Positions 35,035 through 55,425 of a DNA stretch of 64,000 nucleotides are shown here, in pieces; positions within the stretch are counted from its first letter, which is position 1; each line of letters starts with the position of its first letter. The stretch covers positions 310,001 through 374,000 of the forward strand of contig PASF01000011.1 of NCBI GenBank assembly GCA_002711845.1. The letters run 5' to 3'. The stretch comes from Gammaproteobacteria bacterium. Lineage in GTDB: Bacteria; Pseudomonadota; Gammaproteobacteria; Pseudomonadales; Pseudohongiellaceae. Below the pieces are notes generated by a model, which worked only from the letters and a program-made list of their open reading frames with translations, searched no databases and was not told the origin of the DNA. A program made the translations under genes and the position numbers.

Positions 35035-36738
<1,704 letters not shown>

Positions 36739-36791
36739 TATTGTTCTCCTGCTTGTTGTGTCTGGGCTTGTGTCTGGGCTTCTACCAGCGC

Positions 36792-37130: not shown

Positions 37131-37166
37131 GGGTTTTAGCCTGTTTGGTTATCAATGTTCATGAAA

Positions 37167-37469: not shown

Positions 37470-37535
37470 GCTGGTCTGATCGGGTCTCTTTGATTAACGA
37501 TTGTTGTGATGCATTGGCTGTCATGCATCATGTTA

Positions 37536-37570
37536 TATGCACTATGCATTATGCACTATGCGTTATGCAT
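37536..37570. repeat. Five tandem TATGCAY heptamers
   Basis: Five consecutive seven-base units (TATGCAC, TATGCAT, TATGCAC, TATGCGT, TATGCAT) occupy the ureD-ureA gap. TATGCATA-like sequence is near-palindromic, so the array could form small hairpins in mRNA. More ATGCAT copies lie at 37510-37530. Confidence 0.75.
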
Positions 37571-37599
37571 TTTTCTTGCCACTGTCCTGGCAATCATCT

Positions 37600-38496: not shown

Positions 38497-39185
38497 ACAG
38501 CCAGGTGGCGCTTGATCAGGTCGTCACTGAGGTTGGCCATGACATCACTGGCGACCACACGCCCCTTTTCCATCAGACGGAATTCGCTACCAACGCGACG
38601 GGCAAACCCCAGTTTCTGTTCGACCAGAACGACGGTCAGGCCTTCACCATTCAATTTCATGATTACATCACCGATTTGACTGACAATATTGGGTTGAATA
38701 CCTTCATTGGGCTCATCCAGCACCAAAACCTTGGGGTCGGTCACCAATGCGCGACCTATCGCCAGTTGTTGCTGTTGACCACCAGACAGGTCTCCTCCCC
38801 GACGATGCAACATCTCGGCCAGAACCGGAAATAATTCGAAAATGCGTGCGGGTATTTTTTTTACACCGTCCCGGCGACACGGCAGACCGATCTGCAGATT
38901 CTCTTCAACAGTCAATGTGGCAAAAATGTCCCGCCCTTGTGGTACAAATCCCAGTCCCATCCGTGCTCGCTGGTGCGCCGCAAGGTTTTGTATCGGTTTG
39001 CCATCAAACAACACATCTCCATCTGCAATCGGCAACAGCCCCATCAGGCACTTGAGCAACGTGGTCTTGCCGACGCCGTTGCGCCCCATGATGCAGGTGC
39101 ATGAGCCGGGTTCAATGCTCAGATCCACATCCCAGAGAATCTGCGACCCTCCGTAGCGCTGGCTGAGTTTCCGGATTTCGATCAT
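38493..39185 (-). CDS. urtE: Urea ABC transporter ATP-binding protein UrtE
   Basis: ABC ATPase of 230 residues, LivF type. Walker A GRNGVGKTTLL, signature LSGGQQQQLAIGRAL and Walker B VLVLDEPNEGIQPNI are intact. With UrtD it powers high-affinity urea import. Its start overlaps the urtD stop by four bases. Confidence 0.97.
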   Translation of the reverse strand: MIEIRKLSQRYGGSQILWDVDLSIEPGSCTCIMGRNGVGKTTLLKCLMGLLPIADGDVLFDGKPIQNLAAHQRARMGLGFVPQGRDIFATLTVEENLQIGLPCRRDGVKKIPARIFELFPVLAEMLHRRGGDLSGGQQQQLAIGRALVTDPKVLVLDEPNEGIQPNIVSQIGDVIMKLNGEGLTVVLVEQKLGFARRVGSEFRLMEKGRVVASDVMANLSDDLIKRHLAV

Positions 39186-39961
39186 GGTTCTTCCCCCAGG
39201 TACACTTCCACCACGGCCGGATTGTTCTGCACCTGATCCATTGTGCCTTCAGCGAGCACGCTGCCCTGATGAAGCACCGTTACGGTGCGTGCAATGCTGC
39301 GCACAAACTCCATGTCATGCTCCACCACGACGACCGTGCGTTCGCCTGCCAGTGATGTCAGCAGCTCGGCCGTCTTTTCGGTTTCCTGGGCCGTCATGCC
39401 CGCGACCGGCTCATCAATCAGCATCAGCCGGGGATCGGAGACCAGCAACATGCCAATTTCCAGCCATTGTTTCTGACCATGGGACAGCACCCCAGCAGGC
39501 CGGCCCCTGAGCGCCGATAGCCCTATGGTGGCAAGCACGGCGTCAATGCGATCCCGCTGTTCCGAGTCGAGCCGGGCCATCAATGTGAACCAGACCCCTT
39601 TGCCAGTCTTCAATGACAGCTCCAGGTTTTCTGCCACACTGAGTGCCTCAAAGACGGTTGGTTTCTGGAACTTGCGCCCGATACCGAGACGGGCAATTGC
39701 CGCCTCGTCATGTTTCAGCAGATCCACCGTCTGGCCAAAATACACCTGGCCACTGTCGCACCGGGTTTTGCCGGTGATGACGTCCATCAGCGTGGTTTTA
39801 CCGGCGCCATTGGCGCCAATCAGGCACCGCAGCTCGCCGTCATTGATATACAGACTCAGGTCATTCAGCGCCTTGAAACCGTCAAAACTGACCGACAGCG
39901 CTTCAATATAGAGAATCACTTTGTGTGAAACATCAGGGGCTGCCACCTTGTTTAACTTCAT
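39182..39961 (-). CDS. urtD: Urea ABC transporter ATP-binding protein UrtD
   Basis: ABC ATPase of 259 residues, LivG type. Walker A GANGAGKTTLMDVITG, signature LSHGQKQWLEIGMLL and Walker B LMLIDEPVAGMTAQE are intact; the W in the signature and the DEPVAGM sequence are typical of UrtD. The gene overlaps both urtC and urtE by four bases. Confidence 0.97.
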   Translation of the reverse strand: MKLNKVAAPDVSHKVILYIEALSVSFDGFKALNDLSLYINDGELRCLIGANGAGKTTLMDVITGKTRCDSGQVYFGQTVDLLKHDEAAIARLGIGRKFQKPTVFEALSVAENLELSLKTGKGVWFTLMARLDSEQRDRIDAVLATIGLSALRGRPAGVLSHGQKQWLEIGMLLVSDPRLMLIDEPVAGMTAQETEKTAELLTSLAGERTVVVVEHDMEFVRSIARTVTVLHQGSVLAEGTMDQVQNNPAVVEVYLGEEP

Positions 39962-41115
39962 GCCCTGGCCTCCCCGGTCGTGGTCTCTGTACTGCCGTTA
40001 CTGTCCCCATTGTCGTCACGCTGCAGCCTGCGTTTGAGCAGGCCAGCCAGCCCCTTGGGCAGGAAGATGGTGACAAAGACAAACAGTGCACCAAGCATGA
40101 ATATCCAGCTTTCCGGCACCAGTGAGGTAAACCGGGTCTTGGCATAACTGACCAGAATGGCCCCCACGACCGCCCCATAGAGTGTGCCGCGCCCGCCGAC
40201 CGCAACCCAGACCACAATCTCGATTGAGTTGACGGGACTGAATTCACCCGGATTGATAATGCCTACCTGGGGGACATACAGTGCCCCCGCCAGCGCCGCA
40301 ATCAGAGCAGAATAGACAAACAGCCAGACCTTGAAATGATCGGTTCGGTAACCCAGAAAGCGCGCCCGGGCTTCACTGTCGCGAATCGAAACCAGCACCC
40401 GGCCCAGTCGCGAACGCATGATCAGCTGACTGGTGACAAACACCACACCCAGCACCATGGCCGTGATGACAAACAATCCGATCCGGGTGTTGTCGGCACT
40501 GAGATCAAAGCCAGCGATTTCCTTGAAATCGGTTAAACCGTTATTGCCACCAAACCCCATTTCATTGCGGAAAAAAGCCAGCATCAGGGCGTAGGTCAGC
40601 GCCTGGGTGATGATGGACAGATAAACTCCGGTAACCCGCGAACGGAATGCCAGCCAGCCAAAAACCAGTGCCAGCAACCCTGGCACAAGCCCGACCATCA
40701 GCATGGCAAACCAGAACTGATCCATCCCGAACCAGTACCAGGGCAGGCTGTCCCAGTTCAGGAACACCATAAAATCGGGCAGGTCCGGATTACCATAAAC
40801 GCCACGGTCGCCGATCTGCCGCATCAGGTACATGCCCATGGCATACCCGCCGAGCGCGAAAAACGCACCGTGGCCCAGGCTCAATATGCCGCAGTAGCCC
40901 CAGATGACATCCACCGCCAGCGCCAGCATGGCGTAACACAGGTATTTGCCCAGCAGCGTAATGGTATAGGTACTGACATGCAGCGCCGAGCTTTCCGGCA
41001 ATAACAGATTGGACAGGGATGCCAGCACCGTCGCCGCAAACAGCACCACAACAAACAGGGTGATGGTATTGCTGCCGCGTCGCAGCTCGCCCCAGATGCT
41101 TGCCAGTTGACTCAT
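39958..41115 (-). CDS. urtC: Urea ABC transporter permease UrtC
   Basis: LivM-type permease of 385 residues with about ten membrane segments. GYCGILSLGHGAFFALGGYA and VAVGGRGTLYGAVVGAI are the conserved branched-chain-permease loops. The frame is open to 41277, but ATG 41115 overlaps the urtB stop by four bases and has GGGAGGG upstream, which decides the start. Confidence 0.96.
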   Translation of the reverse strand: MSQLASIWGELRRGSNTITLFVVVLFAATVLASLSNLLLPESSALHVSTYTITLLGKYLCYAMLALAVDVIWGYCGILSLGHGAFFALGGYAMGMYLMRQIGDRGVYGNPDLPDFMVFLNWDSLPWYWFGMDQFWFAMLMVGLVPGLLALVFGWLAFRSRVTGVYLSIITQALTYALMLAFFRNEMGFGGNNGLTDFKEIAGFDLSADNTRIGLFVITAMVLGVVFVTSQLIMRSRLGRVLVSIRDSEARARFLGYRTDHFKVWLFVYSALIAALAGALYVPQVGIINPGEFSPVNSIEIVVWVAVGGRGTLYGAVVGAILVSYAKTRFTSLVPESWIFMLGALFVFVTIFLPKGLAGLLKRRLQRDDNGDSNGSTETTTGEARA

Positions 41116-42755
41116 TCGGCAGCCCTCCCTTTTTGCGGGAACAACCCTTTGGGCCGAACCTGAATAAACAGGATAATAAACACCAGCGTGATGATCTTGG
41201 CCAGCACCGCACCCGTCATCGGCTCCATGAACTTGTTGGCGAGCCCCAGTGAAAATGCTCCCACCAGCGTGCCCCACAAGTTACCCACGCCACCAAATAC
41301 AACGACCATAAACGAGTCGATGATGTAGTCCTGCCCCAGATTGGGGCCGACATTAGTCAGCTGACTGAGCGCGACACCGGCGATACCCGCGATACCGGAT
41401 CCCAGACCGAAGGTCATGGCATCAACCCAGTCAGTACGGATACCCATGGCTTTGGCCATATCCCGGTTCTGCGATACTGCACGTACCTGCAATCCCAGCG
41501 ACGTTTTCTTGAGAATCCACAGCAGGATGACAAACACAATTATCGAAAACAGCAGAATAAACAGACGATTGTTGGTCAGCGACAGCACCGGGTTGATGTC
41601 CCAGGCACCACTCATCCAGTCCGGCGACACCACACGCCGGTTCAGGGGCGAGAAGATCGTGCGCACGGCCTGCTGCAGGATCAGACTGATACCAAAGGTG
41701 GCCAGCAGCGTTTCCAGTGGCCGTCCGTTGAGGTAGCGGATGACAAAGCGCTGGATGAACATGCCCACCAGCCCCGACACCATAAACGCTGCCGGTATTG
41801 CCACCCAAAGCGAATAGTTGATGAATTCAGGCATCAGCAACTGCACGACATACGTGGTGTAGGCACCCAACATCAGCATCTCGCCATGGGCCATGTTGAT
41901 CACCCCCATGACGCCAAAGGTCACCGCCAGCCCAATGGCCGCGAGCAACAGCACGGAACCGAGACTGAGCCCATAGAATGCCTGTTCCATCAATTGGTAG
42001 AAACGCACCTTGCGCTCGATGCTGGCCATCGCCGAGACCATGGCTGCACGCACCTCGGGGTCCTGTTCATTGCGGCCGAGGTCATCGAGAAAGCTGCGCA
42101 ACAGGTTGCGCACTGGCCCCTGCAGATTGCCGTGCAGTGTCGCCACAGCGGCAAGGCGCTCTGGCTGCGGCGCATCGGTGACCAGTACATTCATCGCCAG
42201 CGCCACATTGATCATGTCGGCGACTGAGGCAACCTGCTCGTTGGCAATGGCTTCATTGAGGACGGCCAGGTTGTCCTCATCAAGATCACTGAGCATGGTG
42301 CGGGCGGCCTGTTCGCGCTCGGCATCGGTGCCCTGGAACAGCAGAATCCTGGCTATCGTTGCCTGCAGTACGGCACGCAGCCGGTTGTTGATAGGCACCC
42401 GTTCCAGTGATTCGGTATCGATACCGTCCATGACATCACCGGTGAAAACATCGGAGACAGTGATACGGCCACCACCACTTTCCTGGCGCACCACCAATTC
42501 CCGGTTTCCCGGTTGATAGTACAACTCACCGTCCTGCAGCGCGGTCAACAATGGCAGCACCGTCCGCCCCCCGACCTCTTCGATTTCAGTAACCAGTGAC
42601 GGCATACGCCTGAAATTGGCCTCCGTCAGCTCCAGTAACAGTGATGGCAGGGCGGTGTCGTTCGTGCTCGACGAGGCTTGAGGGGATTCAGGGGCTTGCT
42701 GCGCTGCCGCCATGGGAAGAACGAAGCAGCAAATCAACAACAAGAGGGTTCTCAC
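41112..42755 (-). CDS. urtB: Urea ABC transporter permease UrtB
   Basis: LivH-type permease of 547 residues. As in other UrtB proteins, a signal sequence and a periplasmic domain of about 240 residues (rich in helices, e.g. LRSFLDDLGRNEQDPEVRAA) precede the membrane permease, which has VTFGVMGVINMAHGEMLMLG and the closing GGVGNLWGTLVGAF. GTG 42755 has GGAG seven bases upstream. The long N-terminus is the family norm and not a fusion. Confidence 0.96.
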   Translation of the reverse strand: MRTLLLLICCFVLPMAAAQQAPESPQASSSTNDTALPSLLLELTEANFRRMPSLVTEIEEVGGRTVLPLLTALQDGELYYQPGNRELVVRQESGGGRITVSDVFTGDVMDGIDTESLERVPINNRLRAVLQATIARILLFQGTDAEREQAARTMLSDLDEDNLAVLNEAIANEQVASVADMINVALAMNVLVTDAPQPERLAAVATLHGNLQGPVRNLLRSFLDDLGRNEQDPEVRAAMVSAMASIERKVRFYQLMEQAFYGLSLGSVLLLAAIGLAVTFGVMGVINMAHGEMLMLGAYTTYVVQLLMPEFINYSLWVAIPAAFMVSGLVGMFIQRFVIRYLNGRPLETLLATFGISLILQQAVRTIFSPLNRRVVSPDWMSGAWDINPVLSLTNNRLFILLFSIIVFVILLWILKKTSLGLQVRAVSQNRDMAKAMGIRTDWVDAMTFGLGSGIAGIAGVALSQLTNVGPNLGQDYIIDSFMVVVFGGVGNLWGTLVGAFSLGLANKFMEPMTGAVLAKIITLVFIILFIQVRPKGLFPQKGRAAE

Positions 42756-42833: not shown

Positions 42834-44126
42834 TCAAAAGTCCGTGGTCTGTCCGGAACAGGTTTCCGTGACGGTGTTGTAGTTACCGCAGCGGATTGGG
42901 GGAGTCCAGTCGGAGATCAGGTCTTTGGAACCTTCCAGATAATCGGACCAGGCGTCTCCAGGCACCAGGCCGTCGGTCTCCCAGACCACCTGAAACTGAC
43001 CGTCAGACTGGATTTCGCCTATCAGCACCGGTTTGGACAGGTGGTGGTTCTTGTTCATCACCGCCATACCACCGGACAGGTTGGGCGTTTCTATACCAAT
43101 CATGGCCTGCTCTACCGCATCAACATCGGTGGTCCCGGCTTTCTCAACCGCCTTCACCCACATATTGAAACCGATGTATGTTGCCTCCATCGGGTCATTG
43201 GTCACCCGACCCGTGCTACCGATAAAATCATGCCACTGGGCGATGAACTCGGCATTGGCGTCAGTATCCACACTCTGAAAATAGTTCCAGGCGGCCATGT
43301 GTCCCACCAAAGGCCGGGCGTCAATACCGGACAGTTCTTCTTCGCCGACCGAGAAAGCGATCACCGGAATGTCCAGCGAGGAGATACCCTGGTTACCCAG
43401 TTCACGGTAGAACGGTACATTGGCATCCCCGTTGATGGTTGAGACCACCGCAGTTGCCTTGCCGGCGCTGCCAAAACGGCTGATATCAGAGACAATGCTT
43501 TGCCAGTCGGAATGACTGAAAGGCGTGTAGTTGATCATGATATCTTCATCCGCCACACCCTGCGCCTTCAGATAGGCTTCCAAAATTCTATTCGTAGTAC
43601 GCGGGTAGACGTAGTCGGTCCCGGCCAGCACCCAGCGTTCAATGCCCAGGTCATTCATCAGGTAATCGACGGCAGGGATAGCCTGCTGGTTGGGCGCAGC
43701 ACCGGTGTAGAAAATGTTCTTGGAAGACTCCTCGCCTTCATACTGTACCGGGTAAAACAACAGACCATTCAGCTCTTCCAGCACCGGCAGCATGGCTTTG
43801 CGTGATACGGAGGTCCACGCGCCGAAAATGACATCCACATTGTCCTGAGACAACAGCTGTCGGGTACGTTCTGCGAACAACGGCCAATCCGATGCCGGAT
43901 CCACCACCACTGCCTCCAGCGGGCGACCCAGAACACCACCTTTGGCGTTTTGCTGCTCCACCATCATCAACACTGTATCTTTTAACGTCGTTTCACTGAT
44001 GGCCATGGTGCCTGACAGAGAGTGCAATACGCCGACCTTGATGGGCTCCTGGGCCTGGGCGCCGAGACTGAACAGACAGGCGGCAGCGGTGAGAAGTGTG
44101 CGGGAGAAAAATGAGGTGTTGCGCAT
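42834..44126 (-). CDS. urtA: Urea ABC transporter substrate-binding protein UrtA
   Basis: Periplasmic binding protein of 430 residues with a signal peptide (ending SLGAQAQ). VGVLHSLSGTMAISETTLKD is the Leu/Ile/Val-binding-like opening that UrtA shares; the C-terminus NYNTVTETCSGQTT with an engaged Cys pair is also UrtA-like. ATG 44126 is preceded by AAGGAG with a six-base spacer; the reading frame extends further upstream without a ribosome site. The gene begins the urt-ure block; an inverted repeat lies 74 to 101 bases before it. Confidence 0.97.
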   Translation of the reverse strand: MRNTSFFSRTLLTAAACLFSLGAQAQEPIKVGVLHSLSGTMAISETTLKDTVLMMVEQQNAKGGVLGRPLEAVVVDPASDWPLFAERTRQLLSQDNVDVIFGAWTSVSRKAMLPVLEELNGLLFYPVQYEGEESSKNIFYTGAAPNQQAIPAVDYLMNDLGIERWVLAGTDYVYPRTTNRILEAYLKAQGVADEDIMINYTPFSHSDWQSIVSDISRFGSAGKATAVVSTINGDANVPFYRELGNQGISSLDIPVIAFSVGEEELSGIDARPLVGHMAAWNYFQSVDTDANAEFIAQWHDFIGSTGRVTNDPMEATYIGFNMWVKAVEKAGTTDVDAVEQAMIGIETPNLSGGMAVMNKNHHLSKPVLIGEIQSDGQFQVVWETDGLVPGDAWSDYLEGSKDLISDWTPPIRCGNYNTVTETCSGQTTDF

Positions 44127-44199
44127 GACGGACTCCTTAATAGATCTGATCTCATTCTGGAGATTCAGGCAGGCCAACAACAAGTCGGCGATTAACCAT

Positions 44200-44238: not shown

Positions 44239-45285
44239 TCAAATACTCATGACCCGTTCAACGGTCCAGAACAACCCCATACCGCCGACGACAAAAGCAC
44301 TGGCACGAATCATTTTCTGATCCAGGTGGATTCTGCGCAGCAGCATCAGTAACACCAGTACCGTGAAAACGAACAACAACTGGCCGATTTCAACACCGAC
44401 ATTGAAAAACAGCAGTGCAACCACGGTGTCAGCGGCAGAGACCCCCAATCCGCCCAGCACGCTGGCAAAGCCAAGGCCATGTATCAACCCGAAACCTGCG
44501 GTAATGCCCATGCGCCACCGCAGCGAGGCTATGGCACTGCGCTGCTGATGACCCGGGTTGTTGCGGAACTGATGTGCAAGTAATGCCTCCCGCGCCATAA
44601 ACACCACGGACAGGGCAATGATCGCCTCTACCGGCACAATGGGCACATTCACCAAGCCTAGGTGGGCCAATGCCAGGGAAATCGAGTGACCCAGCGTGAA
44701 AGCAGAGATCAGCCAGAGCAGGTTGATACCCCGTGCCAGCATGGCCAGACACAGGACAAACGCGAGATGGTCCAGCCCGATCAGCACATGCTCCGTGCCC
44801 AGTACCAGATATCGCCAGGCAGTCGCCGCAAAACCATCCGGCTGCCGGGTGGCAGCGTCGTCCCAATCCGGCAGGCTGAATTCGGCACCGAACTGGCCGC
44901 CCGACAACATGGTTGATACCACAGTGCCGTCCAAAAGGTGCAGTTCCAGCATCCCGCCATCGCGACCCCAGCGGGTGCGGATTCCACCATTGCTGCTTTC
45001 ATCGCAGTTAACGTCAAAACTGACGGTTACCGCATTGCCCGATGACATCCGTTCTTCACGTTCCAGAACCGAGCAACCGGCCGGCCAGCTGACCGGAAGA
45101 TCCGGGTCGAGATTGATCGGTAAACTGGCATCAAAGCGGAACCACAGGCCCTCGTCTTCGACATTCTGCTGAACCAGCGTGAATTGCGCCAGATCCAGAT
45201 AATGTGCGACGGCTACCGGGACCGACAATATGAACAACAGCGCCCCGGCCAGCTGCCATCGCCAGCGTTTAGCCACCACTGGCAC
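44239..45285 (-). CDS. HupE/UreJ family membrane protein, putative metal permease
   Basis: Membrane protein of 348 residues. A signal sequence and a periplasmic beta-rich domain of about 130 residues precede a six- or seven-segment membrane domain with the HupE/UreJ signatures GTEHVLIGLDHLAFVLCL, LGHSISLALAHLG, GLIHGLGFASVL and FNVGVEIGQL. His/Asp in these segments are the proposed metal ligands; relatives move nickel or cobalt. It overlaps the parvulin gene by 17 bases (GTG starts at 45285 or nearby), so the two are translationally linked. In this cluster nickel for urease or for the ureohydrolases is a reasonable guess. Confidence 0.85.
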   Translation of the reverse strand: MPVVAKRWRWQLAGALLFILSVPVAVAHYLDLAQFTLVQQNVEDEGLWFRFDASLPINLDPDLPVSWPAGCSVLEREERMSSGNAVTVSFDVNCDESSNGGIRTRWGRDGGMLELHLLDGTVVSTMLSGGQFGAEFSLPDWDDAATRQPDGFAATAWRYLVLGTEHVLIGLDHLAFVLCLAMLARGINLLWLISAFTLGHSISLALAHLGLVNVPIVPVEAIIALSVVFMAREALLAHQFRNNPGHQQRSAIASLRWRMGITAGFGLIHGLGFASVLGGLGVSAADTVVALLFFNVGVEIGQLLFVFTVLVLLMLLRRIHLDQKMIRASAFVVGGMGLFWTVERVMSI

Positions 45286-46114
45286 CCATTACAATGGTGA
45301 AGCGCTCTTTGATGGTTTCGGTGCGGGCACTGACATTTTGGCGACGATGATAATCCGCCCAGTCCTGGTCCAGTCGTTCACGTACTGCCTGATAAGACAT
45401 CAACTCGGGTGCACCCTTGTTGCTTACACGGGCGAAATGAAATCCCCGTGCAGACTCCACGGGCCCAACCCACTGGTCCACCGGTGCGGCTTTAAGCTCT
45501 TCATAGAACTCGCCACCAAAGCTGCTACGCAGAATACTTTCCGAATAGCTGTTGAGATTCCTGCCCAGCCAGAAAGCTTCACCTTCAACGGCTTCGCCGG
45601 CCTGCAGGGTTGCCAGAATACCGGCAGCATCCGTTGGCATCTCTTCGAAGTATACCTGGGTGAAACTCAATGTTGGCTCGGTGTAATACTGCTCCATGTT
45701 CTCCATATAGAAGTCCAGTAAGTCGGCCTCATCGACCGGCTCTGGCGAACCGGCCCACAACATGCGTACCTTTTCAATCAAGTGGGCGCGCATCTTGCTG
45801 TCACTCAGGTGCATCCGTTGCGCCAGAGCCTCTCGAAACAGAACCTCTTCATCAATCCACTGGGAAATCAGCGTCTGGGTTTCCGCGTCGGTGGGCCGAC
45901 GGCCTTCCAGCCAGGTGAAATTCTCCTGCAACATCGCGACCGTGGGGTCATCGATCACCACCACGTCGGCGTCATTTGCGGCCATGACATCACTGGCATC
46001 ACTGCTGCCGGACCAGGCGTTGTAGCCAAAGATGGCGACCGCTACCAGCACAAAAATCGACAACGGCTCGGTCAGTAGCTTTTTACTTCCCGGTACTATT
46101 TTCTGTTCACTCAT
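45269..46114 (-). CDS. Membrane-anchored parvulin-type peptidylprolyl isomerase
   Basis: PpiC/SurA-like foldase of 281 residues. One N-terminal anchor (PLSIFVLVAVAIFGYNAW) places the rest in the periplasm. An N-terminal chaperone region (ISQWIDEEVLFREALAQRM) precedes a parvulin domain (LSFTQVYFEE, then GPVESARGFHFARV). ATG 46114 was chosen; an ATG four codons upstream is also in frame. It follows the last ureohydrolase gene by 53 bases and overlaps the hupE-like gene, so it may help fold the exported enzymes or HupE periplasmic domain. Confidence 0.82.
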   Translation of the reverse strand: MSEQKIVPGSKKLLTEPLSIFVLVAVAIFGYNAWSGSSDASDVMAANDADVVVIDDPTVAMLQENFTWLEGRRPTDAETQTLISQWIDEEVLFREALAQRMHLSDSKMRAHLIEKVRMLWAGSPEPVDEADLLDFYMENMEQYYTEPTLSFTQVYFEEMPTDAAGILATLQAGEAVEGEAFWLGRNLNSYSESILRSSFGGEFYEELKAAPVDQWVGPVESARGFHFARVSNKGAPELMSYQAVRERLDQDWADYHRRQNVSARTETIKERFTIVMGASGG

Positions 46115-46167
46115 GTTCCACCCCATTTATCTCAGTCTTATGGTTACTCACAGCAATCGCCGGCAAC

Positions 46168-47574
46168 TCAGTTCTGTCCATGATCAACGGTGATGGGATC
46201 CAGATAGTTCTCATCGTCCAGACCCATTTTCCTCATGGCGACGCCACTCAGGCAGGTATTCATCATGTAGTTCGCGTTCATGGCACTGACATAACTCAAG
46301 TCCAGCATGGGTGCCAGGTCCATGATTTCGAAGCCTGCTATTTGCGTCTCTGCACAAAGTCTACGCAATAAAGGTGCCAGCTCTCGGATCGTCAGGCCAC
46401 CGGGTGCCGCGCGCCCTGCTGCTGGCAACTGAGACGGATCAATGACACTGACATCCAGAGAAATATACACGCGGTCAGTGGCCGACTTTGCTTCGTCAAT
46501 GATGCGCTCAGCCACGCTATCCCAGCCGTGACGCTCTACTTCGGCCATGGTGTGATACTTCACACCCTGCTCGCGCAGCCATTGGAAGGCTTGCGGCGTC
46601 GCCTGTGACCCACGTAAACCCACTTGGATCACGTTACTGCCATCAACCACGTTCTCCGTAATCAGACGGTAAACGGCGTCGCGATCGGACAAAAGGTGTG
46701 CACGAGTGGGCTCGGCGTTGTAATGCGCACCAAAATGAATCACCGTTAACGGCTCTGTTGCATCATTATCTTGCACAGCCTTGACGGTCGGATACATCAG
46801 GGAATGGTCACCACCGACAACAAACGGCACCGCGCCGGTCTGGGCTATCTCGCCGATGCGCTGGTAGGCATGCTCCATTCCCCGATGCACACTCATGCGG
46901 TCCACGGCAATGTCGCCGTAATCCACGACATTAAGCACCGCCAGCGGGTCGACCATGGAATAGACGTCGCGCCCCCCCATCATATGCATACTGCGAATGG
47001 TTTCCGGGGCATTGCGTGCGTCGCGCGCACCACTGCTCATGCTCTGCGGAATACCCACAATGGCAACCTCCACATCACCGGCGATCAGGTCGGCCTGGTC
47101 TACCGCGACCAGCGCACCGGCAAAGGTCGGAATGCCGCCCCACTGATGAATGTAGCGGTGCACGCTGAACGGGCCCGGCTCGCGCAGGTATTCGTTCAAG
47201 GCCTGTGGTCGGACGACCTTGAAGCCATTAAAGCTGCTCGCTTCCGGATTCAGCGGTATTTCTGCCATGTCGATGCCCGGTCGAAATGCCATGGCCTCAA
47301 TGGCCATCATCATGTCGCTGACAAATTGCTCAATCTGTTCTGGTGAACGACGGTCCAGTTCCTGATTGAGTTTTTCCCGGGTCGGGATGACCCGCAAAGG
47401 CTGAAATCCGCGCAGAAAGTCCACCTGCTCAGCACTCAGGCCATTGAGTTTGGCCATGATCTGTGGTGGAATGTCCGCCTCCGCCTGTTGCGCTAAACCG
47501 GTCGCAGGCGCCCATGCCAGCACCGAGCACAGTGCCACACCCGCAAACAGGTGACGTCGATAGTTAACCGTCAT
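46168..47574 (-). CDS. Exported ureohydrolase-family pseudoenzyme (copy A2)
   Basis: Arginase/agmatinase-fold protein of 468 residues with a signal peptide (ending TGLAQQ) and an N-terminal extension of about 130 residues shared by all four copies. Only three of six metal ligands remain: the His of GGDHS, the His of the second motif, which reads GAHYN instead of DAHxD, and the first Asp of DVSVIDP, where DVDxxDP is normal. The GTGTP substrate loop is replaced by AAGRAAP. Hydrolysis is therefore unlikely. Its ATG overlaps the stop of the complete copy B2 by four bases (ATGA), with GAGGAG in the end of B2, which favours equimolar synthesis and a subunit role. Confidence 0.85.
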   Translation of the reverse strand: MTVNYRRHLFAGVALCSVLAWAPATGLAQQAEADIPPQIMAKLNGLSAEQVDFLRGFQPLRVIPTREKLNQELDRRSPEQIEQFVSDMMMAIEAMAFRPGIDMAEIPLNPEASSFNGFKVVRPQALNEYLREPGPFSVHRYIHQWGGIPTFAGALVAVDQADLIAGDVEVAIVGIPQSMSSGARDARNAPETIRSMHMMGGRDVYSMVDPLAVLNVVDYGDIAVDRMSVHRGMEHAYQRIGEIAQTGAVPFVVGGDHSLMYPTVKAVQDNDATEPLTVIHFGAHYNAEPTRAHLLSDRDAVYRLITENVVDGSNVIQVGLRGSQATPQAFQWLREQGVKYHTMAEVERHGWDSVAERIIDEAKSATDRVYISLDVSVIDPSQLPAAGRAAPGGLTIRELAPLLRRLCAETQIAGFEIMDLAPMLDLSYVSAMNANYMMNTCLSGVAMRKMGLDDENYLDPITVDHGQN

Positions 47575-49004
47575 TGGGGGTTCTCCTCGTGATAGTTGTC
47601 CTGGGCATGGTCGATGGTGACCGGGTTCAGGTAGTCAATGTCGTGGCCCAGCTTGCGCATGGCGACGCCGACCAGACAGGCCTTGACGATGGCAGCACTG
47701 TGCAGGGCCGTGGTGTAACCCGGGTCCAGCGCGGGTGCGATTTCAACGATGTCAAAACCAACCAGCTCCTGCTGCGCGCAGAGTTTACGGATGATCGGAA
47801 TGGCTTCGCGGGGGGTCAAGCCACCCGACACCGGCGTACCGGTGCCAACAATGTAGGAAGGGTCGAGGACGTCAACGTCAAAGGATATGTGCAACTTGCG
47901 CCCATCGCGCTTTGCTTCATCCAGCACGCGCTCCATGACGTAGTCCCAGCCATAGCGCTCAACTTCTGCCATCGAATGGTATTTGAACCCCTGTTCCCGC
48001 ATCCAACGATAACCGCTTTCACTGGGCCCCCCTGAACGCAGGCCCACCTGGATATAGTCACTGCCGGTGATATGACGATCACGCATCAGACGATAGATCG
48101 GCTGACCATGGGATATATGATGAGGACTGTCACCCATGCCGACATCGTGGTGGGCATCAAAGTGAATGACGCTGACGTTGCCCTTGCCATAGACATCGAC
48201 CAGTGCCGCCACATTGGGGTATTCAAGTGAGTGGTCACCGCCAATGATCAGCGGTATGGCGCCGGTTTCGGCAATTTCCCGCACCACTTCGCGCACATGC
48301 TGCATGCTGCGCTCAGTGCTGTCGTTATCGATGGCAATGTCACCGTAGTCGACAATATTCAGTTCACGACTCGGGCTGATCTGGGTGTACTGATCATTGC
48401 CGGCCATGCCACCGGTCATGCGCATGACCAGAGGCCCGTAACCGGCATCGCGCCAGCCCGACCCCATGTTCAGGGGCGCGCCGACAATCGCTACATTGAC
48501 GTCACCGGCGATCAGGTCTTCCGGCGTCAACGCGACCGGCGCGCCGGCAAAGGTCGGGATACCACGTGCCAGGCTCACAGGGCCGGGTTCACGTTCAGGG
48601 TCAAAACTGCGCGGACGACGGACCATCCAGGCATTAAAGTCCGGCGACTCCGTGTTCAACGGCAGCCACGCCATATCCCGTCCCTGCTGGAAACCGGTCT
48701 GGTCTTCCACCCACATCATGGCGTCTACATAAGCCTCGACCTGCTCTGCCGAGCGCTTCTCCAGCGCTTCGATCAGGTCTTCAGTGGTCGATGCGTAGCG
48801 TCGTGTCTTGCTGCTGTCCTTGAGGTAGGCCAGTTGTTCCGCGCTCAGACCTGACAGTTTGTCGTCCAGCGAGGCAGGAAATTCGACAACGCCGGTCTCC
48901 TGGTCCTCAGCCTCTTCCTGGGCCAGCGCGAGCTGGCTGATCGCGCTCAACGTCAATGTGGCCAACAGGTTCAACACCTTGGCTTTTTTTGTTTTGATTT
49001 TCAT
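47571..49004 (-). CDS. Exported ureohydrolase (agmatinase/arginase family), copy B2
   Basis: Complete ureohydrolase of 477 residues with a signal peptide (LATLTLSAISQLALAQEE), an acidic linker and a helical N-terminal extension of about 120 residues. All six metal ligands are present: GGDHSLEYP (His), HFDAHHDVG (Asp, His, Asp) and SFDVDVLDPS (two Asp); the GTGTPVSGGLTPREA loop is also normal. The family hydrolyses guanidino compounds to urea plus an amine, but here the catalysis would be periplasmic. Substrate is unknown. ATG 49004 has AGGA eight bases upstream; the frame continues far upstream through copy A1 and must be trimmed. It is very like B1 by eye. Confidence 0.88.
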   Translation of the reverse strand: MKIKTKKAKVLNLLATLTLSAISQLALAQEEAEDQETGVVEFPASLDDKLSGLSAEQLAYLKDSSKTRRYASTTEDLIEALEKRSAEQVEAYVDAMMWVEDQTGFQQGRDMAWLPLNTESPDFNAWMVRRPRSFDPEREPGPVSLARGIPTFAGAPVALTPEDLIAGDVNVAIVGAPLNMGSGWRDAGYGPLVMRMTGGMAGNDQYTQISPSRELNIVDYGDIAIDNDSTERSMQHVREVVREIAETGAIPLIIGGDHSLEYPNVAALVDVYGKGNVSVIHFDAHHDVGMGDSPHHISHGQPIYRLMRDRHITGSDYIQVGLRSGGPSESGYRWMREQGFKYHSMAEVERYGWDYVMERVLDEAKRDGRKLHISFDVDVLDPSYIVGTGTPVSGGLTPREAIPIIRKLCAQQELVGFDIVEIAPALDPGYTTALHSAAIVKACLVGVAMRKLGHDIDYLNPVTIDHAQDNYHEENPQ

Positions 49005-49038
49005 ACCTGAGTCCTTTTGCCGGCCGATGGCACGGCTA

Positions 49039-50436
49039 TCAATTCTGACCATGATCCACCACCGTTGGGTCCAGATAGTTTTCTTCAGTAATACCCACTT
49101 TGCGCATGGCGATGCCGGACAGGCAGGCATTGAGCATGTAGTTGGCATTCATGGCGCTGACATAACTCAGATCGAGCATGGGCGCGAAGTCCATCAGCTC
49201 CACACCCGCAACGGCATTTTCCGCGCACAGGCGCCTGAGCAAAGGCGTCACCTCACGAATGGTGAGACCGCCCGGCACAGCGCGTCCGGCGGCCGTCATT
49301 TCGACCGGGTCAAGCACACTGACATCCAGTGAAATATACAGCGGGTTGCCGGCATCAGCGGCCTCCTCCAGCACGGTTTCCATGACGTCCGACCAGCCGT
49401 TGACCTCCACTGATGCCATCGTGTGATACCTGACATCATTGTCCCGTAACCAGACAAAGGACTCGCGCGTCGCCTGGGCGCCCCGTAAACCTATCTGAAT
49501 CAGGTCGCTGCCTGCGATCACGCCTTCGCTGACCAGGCGATAGACAGCATCCCGGTCAGAGATGGTGTGCGCACGGGTGGGTTCCGCGTTGTAGTTGGCA
49601 CCCAGGTGAATCACTGTCAGTCCCTGATCGGGGTCGGAGGCCTGCACGGCTTTCACGTTGGGGTACATCAGCGAGTTGTCGCCGCCTATCAGGAACGGCG
49701 TGGCACCGGTATTGGCCATTTCCAGCACCATGTCATAGACATGATCAAGCCCGCGCTCCAGGCTCATCCGGTCAACAGCGATGTCTCCGTAGTCAACGAT
49801 GTTCAGCACGGCGCCGGGGTCGACCATGGCATACACATCCAGATTGCCGGTCACATGCATGCCACGCAGCACATTGGGGGCATTGCGGCCGTCACGACTG
49901 CCGCTGCTCATGCTTTGCGGAATCCCGGCGAACGCCACCTCGACATTGCCCGCAATCAGATCTTCCGGCGTTACCGCCACCGGCGCACCGGCAAACGTAG
50001 GAATACCTGCCCACTGGTTGATATACCGGTGCACATTGACCGGACCGGGATCGCGCAGGCGCTCCTTGAGAATCTCGGGCTGCACCACCTTGAAGCTGTT
50101 GAAGCGACTGGCCTCCGGGTTCAGAGGAATGGAAGCCATATCGATACCGGGCCGGTAGGCATGCGCCTCCACCGCGTCAATCATGTCGCTGACATACTGT
50201 GCGACCTGCTCGGGTGTCCGACGCTCAATATCCTGATACAGCTTTTCCCGCGAAGGGATCACCCGCAGGGGTTCATCGGTGCGCAAAAAGCTAATCTGTT
50301 CTTCCGTCAGCAGATACAGTTTATCCACAACCGCCCCCGGCAATCTGGCTTGCGCCAGCACAGGAGTGGCATGAACTGCAACCGCCAAGCCCAGCGCCAG
50401 CGCCGACCAAAATTGACGTTTTGTGCTAGGGCTCAT
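49039..50436 (-). CDS. Exported ureohydrolase-family pseudoenzyme (copy A1)
   Basis: Arginase-fold protein of 465 residues with a signal peptide (AVHATPVLAQA). It is close to A2 along its length but more eroded: GGDNS in place of GGDHS, GANYN in place of DAHxD, and DVSVLDP in place of DVDxxDP, so only one of six metal ligands is left. The GTGTP loop is AAGRAVP. The remainder of the sequence is well kept (no frameshift, no stop), so it is under selection as a protein and is not a decaying gene. ATG overlaps the B1 stop by four bases and GAGGAG lies just upstream, inside B1. Confidence 0.85.
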   Translation of the reverse strand: MSPSTKRQFWSALALGLAVAVHATPVLAQARLPGAVVDKLYLLTEEQISFLRTDEPLRVIPSREKLYQDIERRTPEQVAQYVSDMIDAVEAHAYRPGIDMASIPLNPEASRFNSFKVVQPEILKERLRDPGPVNVHRYINQWAGIPTFAGAPVAVTPEDLIAGNVEVAFAGIPQSMSSGSRDGRNAPNVLRGMHVTGNLDVYAMVDPGAVLNIVDYGDIAVDRMSLERGLDHVYDMVLEMANTGATPFLIGGDNSLMYPNVKAVQASDPDQGLTVIHLGANYNAEPTRAHTISDRDAVYRLVSEGVIAGSDLIQIGLRGAQATRESFVWLRDNDVRYHTMASVEVNGWSDVMETVLEEAADAGNPLYISLDVSVLDPVEMTAAGRAVPGGLTIREVTPLLRRLCAENAVAGVELMDFAPMLDLSYVSAMNANYMLNACLSGIAMRKVGITEENYLDPTVVDHGQN

Positions 50437-51875
50437 AACGGATTCTCCTCGTGGTAGTTGTCCTGAGCGTGATCAATGGTCACCGGATTGAGGTAGTCCG
50501 GGTCGTGACCCAACTTGCGCATGGCGACGCCTATCAGGCAGGCCTGGACGATGGCCGCACTGTGCAGATTGGTGACATAGGTGGGGTCGATTTCAGGCGC
50601 AATCTCCACAATGTCGAAACCGACAACCTCTTGCTGCGCGCAGAGTTTGCGAATGATGGGAATCGCCTCTCTTGGCGTCAAACCACCCGAAACGGGTGTA
50701 CCCGTACCGGCAATATAGGACGGATCAAGCACATCCACATCGAAGGAAATGTGCAGCTTGCGGCCATCACGTTTGGCTTCGCTGAGAATACGGGTCATCA
50801 CATAATCCCAGCCGTAACGTTCCACCTCCGCCATCGAGTGATACTTGAACCCCTGCTCGCGCATCCATTTGTAACCACTTTCGCTGGGACTGCCCGAACG
50901 CAGGCCAACCTGAATGTAGTCGTCTCCCTTGATATGGCCATCAGCCAGCAGACGATAGATCGGTTGCCCGTGATCAATCAGATGCGCCCGATCGCGGCCA
51001 ACGTCATAGTGCGCATCAAAATGAATCACGCTGAGGTTGTCTTCACCGTACACATCGACCAGTGCTGCGACGTTGGGGTACTCAAGTGAGTGATCACCGC
51101 CGACAATAAAGGGGATAGCGCCGGTCTCGGCAATCTCTCTCACGATTTCGCGGACATGCTGCATGCTGCGCTCAGTGCTGTCCTGGTCAATGGCAATGTC
51201 GCCGTAGTCGACAATGTTGAGCTCTCGACTGGGGCTGATCTGTGTGTACTGGTCATTGCCGCCAACACGGCCAATCAGGCGCAATGCCAGTGGCCCATGC
51301 TGGGCGCCACGCCAACCCGAGCCCATATTCAGCGGTGCACCAACAATGGCAACATCGACTTCTCCGGCGACCAGATCTTCAGGCGTCAGCGCAATGGGTG
51401 CGCCAGCAAAGGTGGGGATGCCACTGCGGCCACCATAACGCGACAGATCAATGGGCCCCGGTTCGCGATCAGGGTCAAAGCTGCGCGGGCGACGTACCGC
51501 ATAAGCATTAAAATCAGGGCTATCAGTGTTCAGTGGAATGTGGTCGAGGTCTTCACCTTCCTGGAATTTCGCTTGCTCGGTAACCCAGATCATGGCGTCA
51601 ACATAGGCGCGCACCTGTTCGGCCGAACGCTTTTCCAATGCCTCGATCAGTTCCTCTGGCGTACTGGCAAACCGACGCGTCGGGCCGGTGCGCAGAAATT
51701 CCATTTCTTCTTCAGTGAGCGTGGACAGCTTTTCGTCCAGCGAGCTCGGGAATTCTATGGGTTCTCGCTCTTCTTCCTCATCATCCTGTGCAGCAAGTGG
51801 CATGGACAGAGAGACCATCAACAGCATCAGTGCCGCCATGAGGCCCCGAAGATTAGCTTTCTTTATTGTTTCCAT
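50433..51875 (-). CDS. Exported ureohydrolase (agmatinase/arginase family), copy B1
   Basis: Complete ureohydrolase of 480 residues. Signal peptide (LMLLMVSLSMPLAAQ) is followed by a strongly acidic DDEEEEREP linker, the helical extension, and the catalytic domain with GGDHSLEYP, HFDAHYDVG and SFDVDVLDPS, all six metal ligands, plus GTGTPVSGGLTPREA and the HGQPIYRL segment conserved near the active site in agmatinases. It is the first enzyme gene after the TonB receptor. ATG 51875 has AAAGGA upstream; an in-frame start at 51911 is less likely. Substrate is unknown; urea as a product is inferred from the family and the adjoining urt-ure genes. Confidence 0.88.
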   Translation of the reverse strand: METIKKANLRGLMAALMLLMVSLSMPLAAQDDEEEEREPIEFPSSLDEKLSTLTEEEMEFLRTGPTRRFASTPEELIEALEKRSAEQVRAYVDAMIWVTEQAKFQEGEDLDHIPLNTDSPDFNAYAVRRPRSFDPDREPGPIDLSRYGGRSGIPTFAGAPIALTPEDLVAGEVDVAIVGAPLNMGSGWRGAQHGPLALRLIGRVGGNDQYTQISPSRELNIVDYGDIAIDQDSTERSMQHVREIVREIAETGAIPFIVGGDHSLEYPNVAALVDVYGEDNLSVIHFDAHYDVGRDRAHLIDHGQPIYRLLADGHIKGDDYIQVGLRSGSPSESGYKWMREQGFKYHSMAEVERYGWDYVMTRILSEAKRDGRKLHISFDVDVLDPSYIAGTGTPVSGGLTPREAIPIIRKLCAQQEVVGFDIVEIAPEIDPTYVTNLHSAAIVQACLIGVAMRKLGHDPDYLNPVTIDHAQDNYHEENPL

Positions 51876-51999: not shown

Positions 52000-54900
52000 T
52001 CACAGTGCGACGTTGATACCCACGTAGTAGGCCCGACCCACCGGGCTTACCGGATAGCTGCGCTGGGTTGCATAGGGCTTCTCGTCCGTCACGTTGCTGA
52101 TACCACCGTACAGACGCACATTGGAGCTGTAGTCCCAATTGCCTGACAGATTGTGCGAGAAGAACTCGTCCGTGAAAATGCCAGGGCCATAGTTCTGGAC
52201 GGCGGTCTCGATCGGCCCCGTCAGCGCCATCTCACTCAGGTACTGTGAGCGCAGTGAAAGACTAAACGGGCCGGTTGCCACATTGAAGTTCAGCTGACCT
52301 GACCACTCGGGACGTCGCATCTCCATCAGGTCATTATCAACCACGGCTTCCTCACCCGGGTTAGAAGGTTCGATAAAAGCCAGATCCAACTGCTTGGTTA
52401 CAGCACCGCCCAGGCCTATCTGGAATGCACCCACATCGAACCTGTAGTTTACGTTCAGGTCCACACCCGTCGCTTGTGCTTCACCAAAGTTGAGCTGCAC
52501 CTGTCGCAGGAAGGTGAACCCACCTGATTGCGCAGATGTCGGCTCTGCGTTTCGCTGCAACAACTCACAGAAGGGGTTGTTCAGTGTCGGTGAGTCATAA
52601 CAGCTGGTTACGATGTTCTGAGAGGAAATCTCGGAGATTGCATCTTCGATAACAATATCCCAGTAATCCAGACTCACCGTCAGACCTTCGACAAAGCGTG
52701 GCTGTATTACCACACCCAGCGTCTTGGTGATCGCTTCTTCTGGTTCCAGGTTCGGGTTACCACCAATGGCGCCCGGGAAACCTGCTGACAGCGGATCTAC
52801 GAAGATGTAGTTGCCGGCAGCGTCAAAGATCTTGTCATTGGGTACATTCAATGACTGCAGATCTGTCACACAGTTCTGCTGACGCAAGGCAGGATTGGGA
52901 CCACTGCTGATCTGCGATGCATCACAAGGGTCATTGGGGCGGAAGCTCTGCCCCTGTTCAGGTGAAAACAGTTCAAACAGGTTGGGAACCCGCACCGCCT
53001 TACTGTAATTGGCGCGGAAACGCACATCCTCTATGGGTGCCCACAGACCACCAACCTTGAACGTATCACTTTCACCAAAGGTAGAGTAATCCGCGCGACG
53101 GAAAGCACCGTCCACCGTCAACGTTTCAATCAATGGCAGATTGCTCAACAGCGGGACTTCTACTTCGGCGAAGACATCCCAAACATCGTAGCTTGCCTCT
53201 GTGCTCAATGCACGGTTACCGGGTGATCCACCCAGACTACGCGCCCTGCTCACATCACCCACCCAGTCGCCCGCCTCGAACGCAACACCGGCAGGTGTCA
53301 CACCACTGACAGAGGTCAGACCCTGGTCGTAGTTGTCATATTCCTGGGCGCTTTTCTCTTCTCGCCACTCACCACCGAACGCGAAAGATATCGGGCCCGC
53401 TGGCATGGTAAAGAATTCTGAGCTATTGCCACTGACAAAACCGCTGAGCACGGACTGCTCTATTTCTTCCTTGACGGTTCGGGTGTAGGAGAAGAAATCG
53501 ATGGCTTCCTGACTGATTGAGCCTTCACCGCCCCAAATATTGGCTGGCTTACACTGACCATCACCTGGCTGGAAGCTAAAGAATGGTGACAGCGCGCGAC
53601 CACCCAGATAGGCCGGGAAATTGAATGGCGTGGTTCTGGGGTAAGCACTGGCATCCAGGTCAGAGCGACAGACCGGCTGACCTGTCGCCGGATCGGTCAC
53701 GACATCGATGGCCGCAAAGAACCGGTCAGTCACCGGCGTGAAAGGCGACTTGTAGTGACGATTGAATTTGCCATAGTTAGCCGACAATTCGTAGTCCAGG
53801 CCCCACTGGTCCAGATTGCCGCTCAAACCGGCAACCAGCCGGTACGTGGTACGTCGGTTGATTGATTCGTTATCACCCCAGTCATCGGAGTCACGCGAAA
53901 TGTACAGGCCACCCGGGCCTACAAAACCGACACCGGGATTATTGGCAAAGGGTGCCAATTGAGCTGGCAGGAAGGGGTTATCGGGCGCACCATACAGATA
54001 GTCAGTCGCCTGGTTGCCACCACCGCCGAACACCACTTCGTGATAGACGTATTTGCTTTCTGCGAACAGCTCCATGGTGGGCGTCAGTTCGTATCGGGCA
54101 TTCAGGTTGATAGAGTATTTATCATCTTTGGGAATGATGTAAGGACGGTTGGGTGCGATGTAACTGTCCTCAGCGCCAAACTGGTTAAAGTTGCCTGCTA
54201 CCAGACCATCGTTGTAGGGCACCAATTGGCCCGCGGCATTAACCAGCCAGCAGCCACCTGCCGCACCAAAAGAGCCGGCGCCATCCAGGCTGGAGTTGTA
54301 ACCGGTAAAACTGTCAAGACAGTCAGAGGTGCCGTTGCCGTCAAGATCCGGCTCTTGGCCCAATGGCACGACAGTGCCAAAGTCACCCAGAGCAATCACG
54401 CCGTAGGGCGAGGTAATGTTGAAGGTACGGCCAGGCAACAGCGCACGCGGCGTGGCCGTGGCGGCGCGATCAAACAGTGCCTGTTCAGCAGCGGTGAGGC
54501 TGGGCGCCGTGCCGAATTCGCTCTGATAGTTGGCGGCGAACGTATCTGAATTAGGAATACGCAGCCCGAACGGGAATAACCCGGTGTTGTTGAAGTTGTA
54601 GTACTGTGCCAGGTTTGGCGTGTTTGAGGCAGTGATATCACCTTTCTGGAAACGCAGCGCTGGATTGACGTCGTTACCAAATCGTCCGCCATTACGCTGA
54701 CCTTCACGATCCCCTGCTCGCAGACCGTCGCTCGAGTCGTGTTGCAGCGACACGGTAAAATTGCCGCGGTTGTCATCAAAATTCTGGCCTATCAGGGCAC
54801 GCAGACTGGCGGTACCCGCATCTCCCTCTTCTGCGAGGCCAGTGCGGAAATCGATATCGACGCCTTCGTAATCATTGCGCAGTACAAAATTGACCACACC

Positions 54901-55425
54901 CGTGACCGCATCGGCACCATAAACGGCGGACGCACCACCGGTGAGCACTTCCACGCGCTCAATCAGGGCCGACGGAATGGTAGACACATCGACTGACGAT
55001 GTCCCTTCAATACCCGACACGTGACGACGTCCATTAACCAGTGTCAGCGTGCGCTGGGATCCCAGTGCACGCAGGTTGAGGGCACTTCCGCCCACGTTGC
55101 TGGCTCGACCGCTGTTCGCTGCAGTACCGCCGATGGAGTTGGTACTGGTGACCGACGACAGCAGTGCCGGGTTTTCATTCAGAATTTCACCGATATCGAC
55201 CGTCGCCGAGCTGGACAGGTCTTCAGCGCTGATCACCGACAATGGCTGTGTGGAAGTCGCATTGTCTATGCGCTGAATACGGCTGCCGGTGACGACCAGC
55301 TCTTCAATGGCAGGTGTATCAGCCTCCTGGGCGTAGGTAAAAGGTGTTGATGCCACGCCCGCCAACAGGGCGATGGCGACATTCAAACGACGACGGTTGA
55401 AAGACTTAAGTGGTGTTGTATTCAT
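52000..55425 (-). CDS. TonB-dependent outer-membrane receptor upstream of ureohydrolases
   Basis: Large receptor of 1141 residues. Signal peptide (IALLAGVASTPFTYAQE), TonB-box region AIEELVVTGSRIQ, plug with LRALGSQRTLTLVNGRRHV and RVEVLTGGASAVYGADAVTG, then an extended barrel ending GRAYYVGINVAL. No STN or carboxypeptidase-like domain. The GSRIQRIDN and SNVGGSALNLRALG features match the large TonB-receptor clade abundant in marine bacteria that take up peptides and other organics. It lies 124 bases before the first ureohydrolase on the same strand, separated by a hairpin, so it probably brings in the substrate of the exported enzymes (inference). Confidence 0.93.
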   Translation of the reverse strand: MNTTPLKSFNRRRLNVAIALLAGVASTPFTYAQEADTPAIEELVVTGSRIQRIDNATSTQPLSVISAEDLSSSATVDIGEILNENPALLSSVTSTNSIGGTAANSGRASNVGGSALNLRALGSQRTLTLVNGRRHVSGIEGTSSVDVSTIPSALIERVEVLTGGASAVYGADAVTGVVNFVLRNDYEGVDIDFRTGLAEEGDAGTASLRALIGQNFDDNRGNFTVSLQHDSSDGLRAGDREGQRNGGRFGNDVNPALRFQKGDITASNTPNLAQYYNFNNTGLFPFGLRIPNSDTFAANYQSEFGTAPSLTAAEQALFDRAATATPRALLPGRTFNITSPYGVIALGDFGTVVPLGQEPDLDGNGTSDCLDSFTGYNSSLDGAGSFGAAGGCWLVNAAGQLVPYNDGLVAGNFNQFGAEDSYIAPNRPYIIPKDDKYSINLNARYELTPTMELFAESKYVYHEVVFGGGGNQATDYLYGAPDNPFLPAQLAPFANNPGVGFVGPGGLYISRDSDDWGDNESINRRTTYRLVAGLSGNLDQWGLDYELSANYGKFNRHYKSPFTPVTDRFFAAIDVVTDPATGQPVCRSDLDASAYPRTTPFNFPAYLGGRALSPFFSFQPGDGQCKPANIWGGEGSISQEAIDFFSYTRTVKEEIEQSVLSGFVSGNSSEFFTMPAGPISFAFGGEWREEKSAQEYDNYDQGLTSVSGVTPAGVAFEAGDWVGDVSRARSLGGSPGNRALSTEASYDVWDVFAEVEVPLLSNLPLIETLTVDGAFRRADYSTFGESDTFKVGGLWAPIEDVRFRANYSKAVRVPNLFELFSPEQGQSFRPNDPCDASQISSGPNPALRQQNCVTDLQSLNVPNDKIFDAAGNYIFVDPLSAGFPGAIGGNPNLEPEEAITKTLGVVIQPRFVEGLTVSLDYWDIVIEDAISEISSQNIVTSCYDSPTLNNPFCELLQRNAEPTSAQSGGFTFLRQVQLNFGEAQATGVDLNVNYRFDVGAFQIGLGGAVTKQLDLAFIEPSNPGEEAVVDNDLMEMRRPEWSGQLNFNVATGPFSLSLRSQYLSEMALTGPIETAVQNYGPGIFTDEFFSHNLSGNWDYSSNVRLYGGISNVTDEKPYATQRSYPVSPVGRAYYVGINVAL

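Follow-up and report, generated by a model that had tools for sequence, protein, structure and literature searches.

Alternating catalytic and pseudoenzyme ureohydrolase genes with predicted export signals, adjacent to urea import and urease genes in a member of the Pseudohongiellaceae

The 64,000-nt stretch of DNA examined here (the window), from a member of the Pseudohongiellaceae described as a marine-type bacterium, contains an array of four genes of the arginase/ureohydrolase fold on its minus strand (positions 46168-51875). The genes lie in the order B1 (50433..51875), A1 (49039..50436), B2 (47571..49004), and A2 (46168..47574), in which B1 and B2 encode predicted catalytic exported ureohydrolases and A1 and A2 encode their predicted exported pseudoenzyme partners. 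An original prediction, made from the letters of the window, had proposed the same fold, strand, and order, and our domain search agreed: all four proteins exceeded the curated cut-off of 22 bits for PF00491 at 141-246 bits (245.8 for B1, 141.2 for A1, 245.2 for B2, and 192.7 for A2). None of them reached an equivalog cut-off; the best scores were 139.2 of 174.3 bits for agmatinase (TIGR01230), 143 of 229.15 bits for formimidoylglutamase (TIGR01227), and 130.8 of 227.6 bits for arginase (TIGR01229).

Read in the order H; D, H, D; D, D, the metal ligands are HDHDDD in B1 and B2, both of which also have the catalytic loop His and Glu; the six ligands claimed earlier for the B copies were thus recovered in full. 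The ligands read NGNNDS in A1 and HGHNDS in A2, that is, one and three of the six are retained, respectively. The earlier statement that the A copies had lost most of their ligands therefore holds for A1 but overstates the loss in A2. In both A proteins the loop His and the Glu are replaced by Asp, and the GTGTP loop, previously reported as lost, reads AAGRA. B2 is 77% identical to B1, and the identities of A1 and A2 to B1 are 42% and 44%, respectively. Each B stop codon overlaps the following A start codon as ATGA (B1/A1 and B2/A2), with a GAGGAG sequence within the 3' end of each B gene, in agreement with the proposed ribosome-binding site of A inside B. Single-chain AlphaFold2 models of B1 (pLDDT 89.4) and A1 (pLDDT 87.1) both had the arginase fold; the best PDB fold matches were guanidinobutyrase for B1 (3nio, Foldseek E 1.4e-24) and guanidinopropionase for A1 (3nip). 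The fold matches mostly covered 300-350 columns, which leaves an N-terminal stretch of approximately 115 residues in the mature protein uncovered.

Signal peptides, which had originally been assigned to all four proteins, were called by a crude rule that does not tell Sec from Tat. The rule was positive for B1, A1, B2, and A2, and A2 also has a twin-arginine-like start. Across 77 sources, comprising the window, a third pair in the same genome, and 75 named loci, the rule was positive for 84 of the 93 distinct full rows of B and for 50 of the 52 of A; two of the 11 rows missed (L074 and L086) run off the contig end. In control sets with approximated start codons, the rule called 22 of 22 UrtA and TonB receptor sequences exported and 2 of 35 cytoplasmic sequences, or 0 of 35 when Met starts only were used. 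Two cysteines are invariant in the B (113/113) and A (61/61) rows with data, and in 102 of 113 B rows and 43 of 62 A rows the aligned part contains no other cysteine. Neither cysteine occurs in six full-length relatives of the cytoplasmic type (five agmatinases encoded on plasmids and the homologue from the array genome itself), and the first is absent from three of four PDB fragments. A disulfide between the two invariant cysteines would be the natural reading. Because the N-termini resemble signal peptides and the cysteine pair is invariant across the subfamily, the array proteins look exported beyond the inner membrane, and the earlier assignment of signal peptides withstood the comparison. 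The available parts of two reports (PMC11410670 and PMC13390362) contained nothing on ureohydrolase export.

The 77 sources yielded 81 clusters, namely 26 AB, 12 BA, six BABA, two BAB, four BB, one BBA, 23 single B, and seven with a cut gene. The adjacency of B and A on which the original prediction leaned extends across this survey: all 54 full A genes abutted a B gene, and an ATGA-spaced start was present at 17 of 28 B-to-A junctions. Because the alternation of B and A recurs in other genomes, it is not a product of chance. Four of the loci with a single B (L103, L104, L106, and L107) have it near a B-A pair. Since catalytic exported relatives without an adjacent A exist, A may not be a requirement for B-type enzymes as a class. 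The B-B pairs, found in four alphaproteobacterial loci (L094, L118, L121, and L124), consist of two adjacent catalytic exported copies upstream of urease; in the more careful tree the first gene of these pairs grouped with paired B and the second with single B, and in the FastTree tree the first genes were placed at the base of B.

The third exported pair in the same genome (L015, 10003-13171 on contig C2) has the order A then B, with the A ligands TSHDDS, and no urease or Urt genes were found near it in the 20 kb examined. This A-to-B type occurs also in Woeseiaceae and other Gammaproteobacteria.

Phylogenetic analysis placed all 62 A rows on one side of a single branch (FastTree), and in a tree rooted with known enzymes as the outgroup, 29 of 29 A rows formed one clade with a support of 100/100. 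The clade persisted with a support of 95/99 when the 11 columns holding ligand and switch positions were removed, and 94% of 200 bootstrap trees contained it. In the outgroup-rooted tree, the A clade joined mostly partnered B genes, with most single B genes outside. Because the A rows form one clade even without the ligand columns, the simplest reading would be that catalysis was lost once and that A and B were then inherited together for a long time. Distances among A and among B sequences were correlated over 52 pairs (Mantel r 0.955, with 0 of 2000 permutations as high), a correlation of which linkage alone could be the source.

The dN/dS values of A were 0.039-0.068 in seven comparisons (A1, 0.044-0.068 in four; A2, 0.039-0.068 in three) and those of B were 0.022-0.043 in seven, with synonymous sites near saturation in several comparisons; for the third pair, the values were 0.044-0.054 in A versus 0.015-0.036 in B. 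The replacements in A were fixed or nearly so: loop His to Asp in 100%, metal Asp to Ser in 100%, loop Thr to Arg in 98%, and Glu to Asp in 98%. The arginine thus fixed in A may occupy the metal or substrate site left empty. On these comparative grounds, A is best described as an old, kept partner and not a product of decay, because it forms one clade with fixed catalytic replacements under strong purifying selection.

The history of the four-gene arrangement was less simple than a B-A unit "duplicated once," as first proposed. The A1 and A2 types were sisters (98/98 in the array tree and 98/81 in the outgroup-rooted tree) and the B1 and B2 types joined at 93/50 in the outgroup-rooted tree; in the array tree, B1, B2, and the L070/L073 lineage formed an unresolved fork. 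In the arrays of L072, L076, and L077, both B types paired together (93/95), as did both A types (82/92). Under a constraint that forced the first-position genes of both array types together, a single duplication for all B-A-B-A arrays was rejected by the AU test (p-AU 0.004 for B and 0.011 for A). Because of this rejection, either the arrays arose separately in two lineages, or the copies were homogenized by gene conversion within arrays; unless the latter occurred, at least two lineages acquired them separately.

Among known ureohydrolases, B1 was most similar in both sequence and fold to the guanidinobutyrase and agmatinase group (GbuA and SpeB; 3nio, 138.6 bits), the members of which are cytoplasmic and homomeric. 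The guanidine hydrolase GdmH (7esr and 9fek) was the second-best sequence match of B1 and the best of A1; it lacks the first cysteine of the pair, the second column being outside the fragment compared, and it is not known as a two-gene exported enzyme. GdmH hydrolyzes free guanidine to urea, which is used by urease, according to the available part of PMC11410670.

Heteromeric ureohydrolases for metformin and dimethylguanidine were described in 2024, and the available parts of the two reports (PMC11399263; PMC11271267) describe metformin hydrolase as the product of two adjacent arginase-family genes, one with six ligands and the other having lost most. Its subunits are inactive singly and form an alpha2-beta4 hexamer, in which the catalytically inactive subunit forms a cap over the active site and is required for activity (PMC11271267; PMC11399263). 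The array resembles these systems (MfmAB/MetCaCb/MefH and DmgH) in its adjacent genes for an active and a degenerate subunit. Unlike the cytosolic MfmAB, however, the array proteins have predicted signal peptides, an N-terminal part of approximately 115 residues, and the invariant cysteine pair. The genomic background also differs: no HypA (PF01155) was found above the cut-off in the array genome, where one fragment scored 23.4 bits against a cut-off of 28.9 (for HypB, the search extended only to UreG, a member of the same family), and there were zero matches in the genome to the NCS1-type transporter family (PF02133). A1 scored 55 bits against the MfmB chain, lower than the 87 bits against guanidine hydrolase, and is 42% identical to B1, so the site loss in A was probably separate from that in MfmB. 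The position of A within the exported clade in the outgroup-rooted trees, which were built without MfmB, also speaks against common descent with MfmB. We therefore keep the array proteins apart from the metformin hydrolase family, since their location, neighbors, and probably descent differ; the working principle looks like that of metformin hydrolase, in an apparently separate exported lineage. By titles and abstract openings among the matches listed, the open full-text literature gave no description of an exported bacterial ureohydrolase or of such an operon; most subscription papers were outside this scope.

The array is part of a longer series of minus-strand genes. Upstream of B1, at a gap of 124 bases, lies a gene for a TonB-dependent outer-membrane receptor with plug and beta-barrel domains (52000..55425); homologues of at least 300 bits were present in 9 of the 75 loci, all of the B-to-A type. 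Downstream of A2 are genes for a PPIC-type peptidyl-prolyl isomerase (PPIase; 45269..46126; Rotamase_2), the hydrophobic N-terminal stretch of which is a probable membrane anchor, and for a HupE/UreJ-type membrane protein (44239..45285; PF13795), which is nickel permease-like by family name only. A PPIase homologue was found in 27 of 75 loci and a HupE/UreJ homologue in 21, the PPIase being present in every one of the latter. These are followed by genes for UrtA, the urea-binding protein of an ABC importer (42834..44183; TIGR03407, 566.2 bits, cut-off 492.75), and for UrtB, UrtC, UrtD, and UrtE (38493..42755), which scored above the NCBIfam cut-offs at 438, 439, 386, and 323 bits, respectively; the start codon of UrtC is uncertain. 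The series ends with the urease genes ureD, ureA, ureB, ureC, ureE, ureF, and ureG (33073..38496). UreD and UreF were identified by Pfam, and UreA, UreB, UreC, and UreG were above the NCBIfam cut-offs; UreE matched UreE models narrowly below the cut-offs (best, 143.4 of 144). The minus-strand order is thus TonB receptor, B1, A1, B2, A2, PPIase, HupE/UreJ, UrtA-UrtE, UreD, UreA, UreB, UreC, UreE, UreF, and UreG, all co-directional across 22 kb, where neighboring genes overlap or are separated by at most about 130 bases. Consensus searches for promoters and terminators gave no excess over shuffled sequences (9 versus 9.4 and 14 versus 14.5) and no convincing candidate.

Beyond ureG, on the plus strand, Pfam identified a hybrid histidine kinase (28365-31781) and a LuxR-type response regulator (31841-32818), which are probable regulators; homologues of the sensor domain and of the regulator were found in 10 and 9 of 75 loci, respectively. 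The sensor part of the kinase is a conserved polytopic region of approximately 500 residues, with 50-54% identity in six relatives from other loci. This membrane part had no match in Pfam or, by profile, in the PDB at E 10. An NCS1-type sensor in the kinase was considered and is unsupported, as there was no Pfam or PDB match at E 10 and no PF02133 genome-wide.

The nearest named relatives were Pseudohongiella and related uncultured genomes (94-95% identity to B1). Among 15 genomes of the genus, 10 had a match at E 1e-60, including one (G005) with a truncated B only. In G005, locus L158 (9500-13831) contains a TonB receptor gene and the truncated B remnant, and urease and UrtA are absent, a state that possibly reflects loss of the array. 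UrtA was present in all nine genomes with the full array (eight above the cut-off; the ninth, truncated at the end of its contig, scored 304 bits) and in none of the six without it, three of which gave weak matches of 41-45 bits. UreC was present in eight of the nine, the exception being a 700-contig assembly, and in none of the six. The hypergeometric values for UrtA (0.0002) and UreC (0.0014) over these 15 related genomes do not describe independent events because the genes are adjacent and the genomes are related. Urt or urease genes were also found in 12 of 23 B-to-A loci.

Matches at E 1e-60 occurred in 33 of 137 genomes family-wide. When four candidates were scored per genome, none of the 369 other genomes in the class matched, and 3 of 396 others in the phylum did. 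Within the Komagataeibacter family, 1 of 199 other genomes had a match. Beyond the genus, the distribution is thus rare and patchy, including, by genome name, Woeseiaceae, Alteromonadales, Sphingomonadales, and acetic acid bacteria. In a plasmid collection, 464 records matched A1, of which one covered at least 80%, a Novosphingobium megaplasmid that carries urtABC-like, PPIase, HupE, B-A, and urease genes, all unannotated there.

Taken as a whole, these data make it probable that the array encodes exported, hetero-oligomeric pairs of a catalytic ureohydrolase and a pseudoenzyme that free urea for UrtABCDE and urease. A guanidino compound would enter the periplasm, perhaps via the TonB receptor, and would be hydrolyzed by B with A to urea and an amine; B would carry the two-metal active site, and A, a dead homologue, would serve as a structural or active-site-shaping partner. 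The urea would be imported by UrtABCDE and converted to ammonia and CO2 by cytosolic urease, with HupE/UreJ supplying nickel and the PPIase aiding folding. The parts of this scheme differ in strength. We have high confidence in the predicted activity of B; transfer of the urea to Urt and urease is likely, formation of a B-A complex is only slightly less so, and for entry of the substrate through the TonB receptor the chances appear about even. The earlier interpretation agrees with this scheme on export, the loss of the A site, and adjacency; it had missed the third pair, the lone catalytic B genes, and the operon context of TonB receptor, PPIase, HupE/UreJ, Urt, and urease genes.

Several observations weigh against this explanation. 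Support for the placement of A beside paired B is modest (80/59 at the join and 85/82 for the paired-B clade). There were 23 single-B clusters, four of which lie where the locus or contig ends, and B genes without an A of their own occurred in the B-A-B arrays (two loci) and the B-B pairs (four loci), which indicates that A is not universally needed. GbuA has the first cysteine of the pair, the second column being outside the fragment. The array, urt, and ure genes are adjacent, so that their joint presence or loss may be one event, and the 15 genomes are related. Moreover, Urt or urease genes were found in 0 of the 27 A-to-B loci among the 75 (several of these 27 loci are short), indicating that the link to urease is not general.

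Among the alternatives, the one that survives best, though it is improbable, is that A is a separate periplasmic ligand-binding protein, a scavenger or sensor that passes the compound to B or signals its presence, with B an ordinary homo-oligomer. The non-random changes in the A pocket, where 98-100% of the A rows share the Asp, Ser, Arg, and Asp replacements, and the existence of single-B clusters are consistent with such a role; however, the strict adjacency, the ATGA starts (17/28), and the parallel divergence fit a subunit at least as well, and the nearest experimental precedent is a subunit. Rather less probable is that the array encodes exported ureohydrolases for polyamine or arginine metabolism or for detoxification, to which the adjacency of urt and ure is incidental. 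The absence of a urease link from the A-to-B pairs (0/27 loci) and the relationship in sequence and fold to guanidinobutyrase and its kin favor this possibility, but it does not account well for the co-occurrence of the array with UrtA and UreC within the genus or for the repetition of the linkage in Alphaproteobacteria and Alteromonadales. It is unlikelier still that A is an enzyme of altered chemistry, with one metal or none, so that each pair performs two steps. Three of the six ligands are retained in A proteins of the A-to-B type (31 of 62 distinct A rows read TSHDDS), and the altered pocket is conserved. Ligand retention nevertheless varies widely among A groups, down to one of six in A1 of the window; at the loop His position every A row with data has Asp, and none of the A rows retains the Glu. 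Finally, that the A genes are functionless decaying duplicates, as their lost metal ligands might suggest, was rejected as highly improbable in view of the single clade common to Gamma- and Alphaproteobacteria, dN/dS near 0.05, intact frames, and fixed replacements.

The preferred explanation, exported catalytic/pseudoenzyme pairs that feed Urt and urease, suggests that these systems draw on urea released in the periplasm. It also describes an apparently separate exported lineage in which one clade of dead subunits has been kept across Gamma- and Alphaproteobacteria, and such a lineage can tell why a ureohydrolase retains a catalytically dead partner. More tentatively, and with somewhat less than even confidence, we propose an envelope route for guanidino nitrogen in which the compound would be captured at the outer membrane and cleaved in the periplasm by an old and obligate enzyme/pseudoenzyme pair, the urea would pass through a dedicated Urt importer to urease, and the whole would have its own two-component system; this unit would have moved between Gamma- and Alphaproteobacteria, and its B-A units would have multiplied independently for new substrates. 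If such a route operates, the carbon skeleton need never reach the cytosol.

Several further features were noted near the array and its relatives. In the window, positions 36303-36586 on the plus strand matched the Rfam family 5_ureB_sRNA (106.6 bits), antisense to ureC; the match may reflect no more than conservation of ureC as a coding sequence. Upstream of the TonB receptor gene, a PQQ-dependent dehydrogenase gene and two YceI-like genes (55997-59195, minus strand) were found, and such genes also occur near the array in some relatives. In L104, a TPR-sulfotransferase gene (13883-15451) lies between a response regulator gene and a TonB receptor gene, near exported ureohydrolases; the similarity cluster of open reading frames of this type touches 8 of 76 loci, the L104 member alone having been domain-scanned. 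Xanthine-dehydrogenase-like molybdopterin-binding subunits are likewise encoded near exported ureohydrolases in L116 (1273-3456) and L127 (7231-9456), and their similarity cluster was found in 5 of 76 loci.

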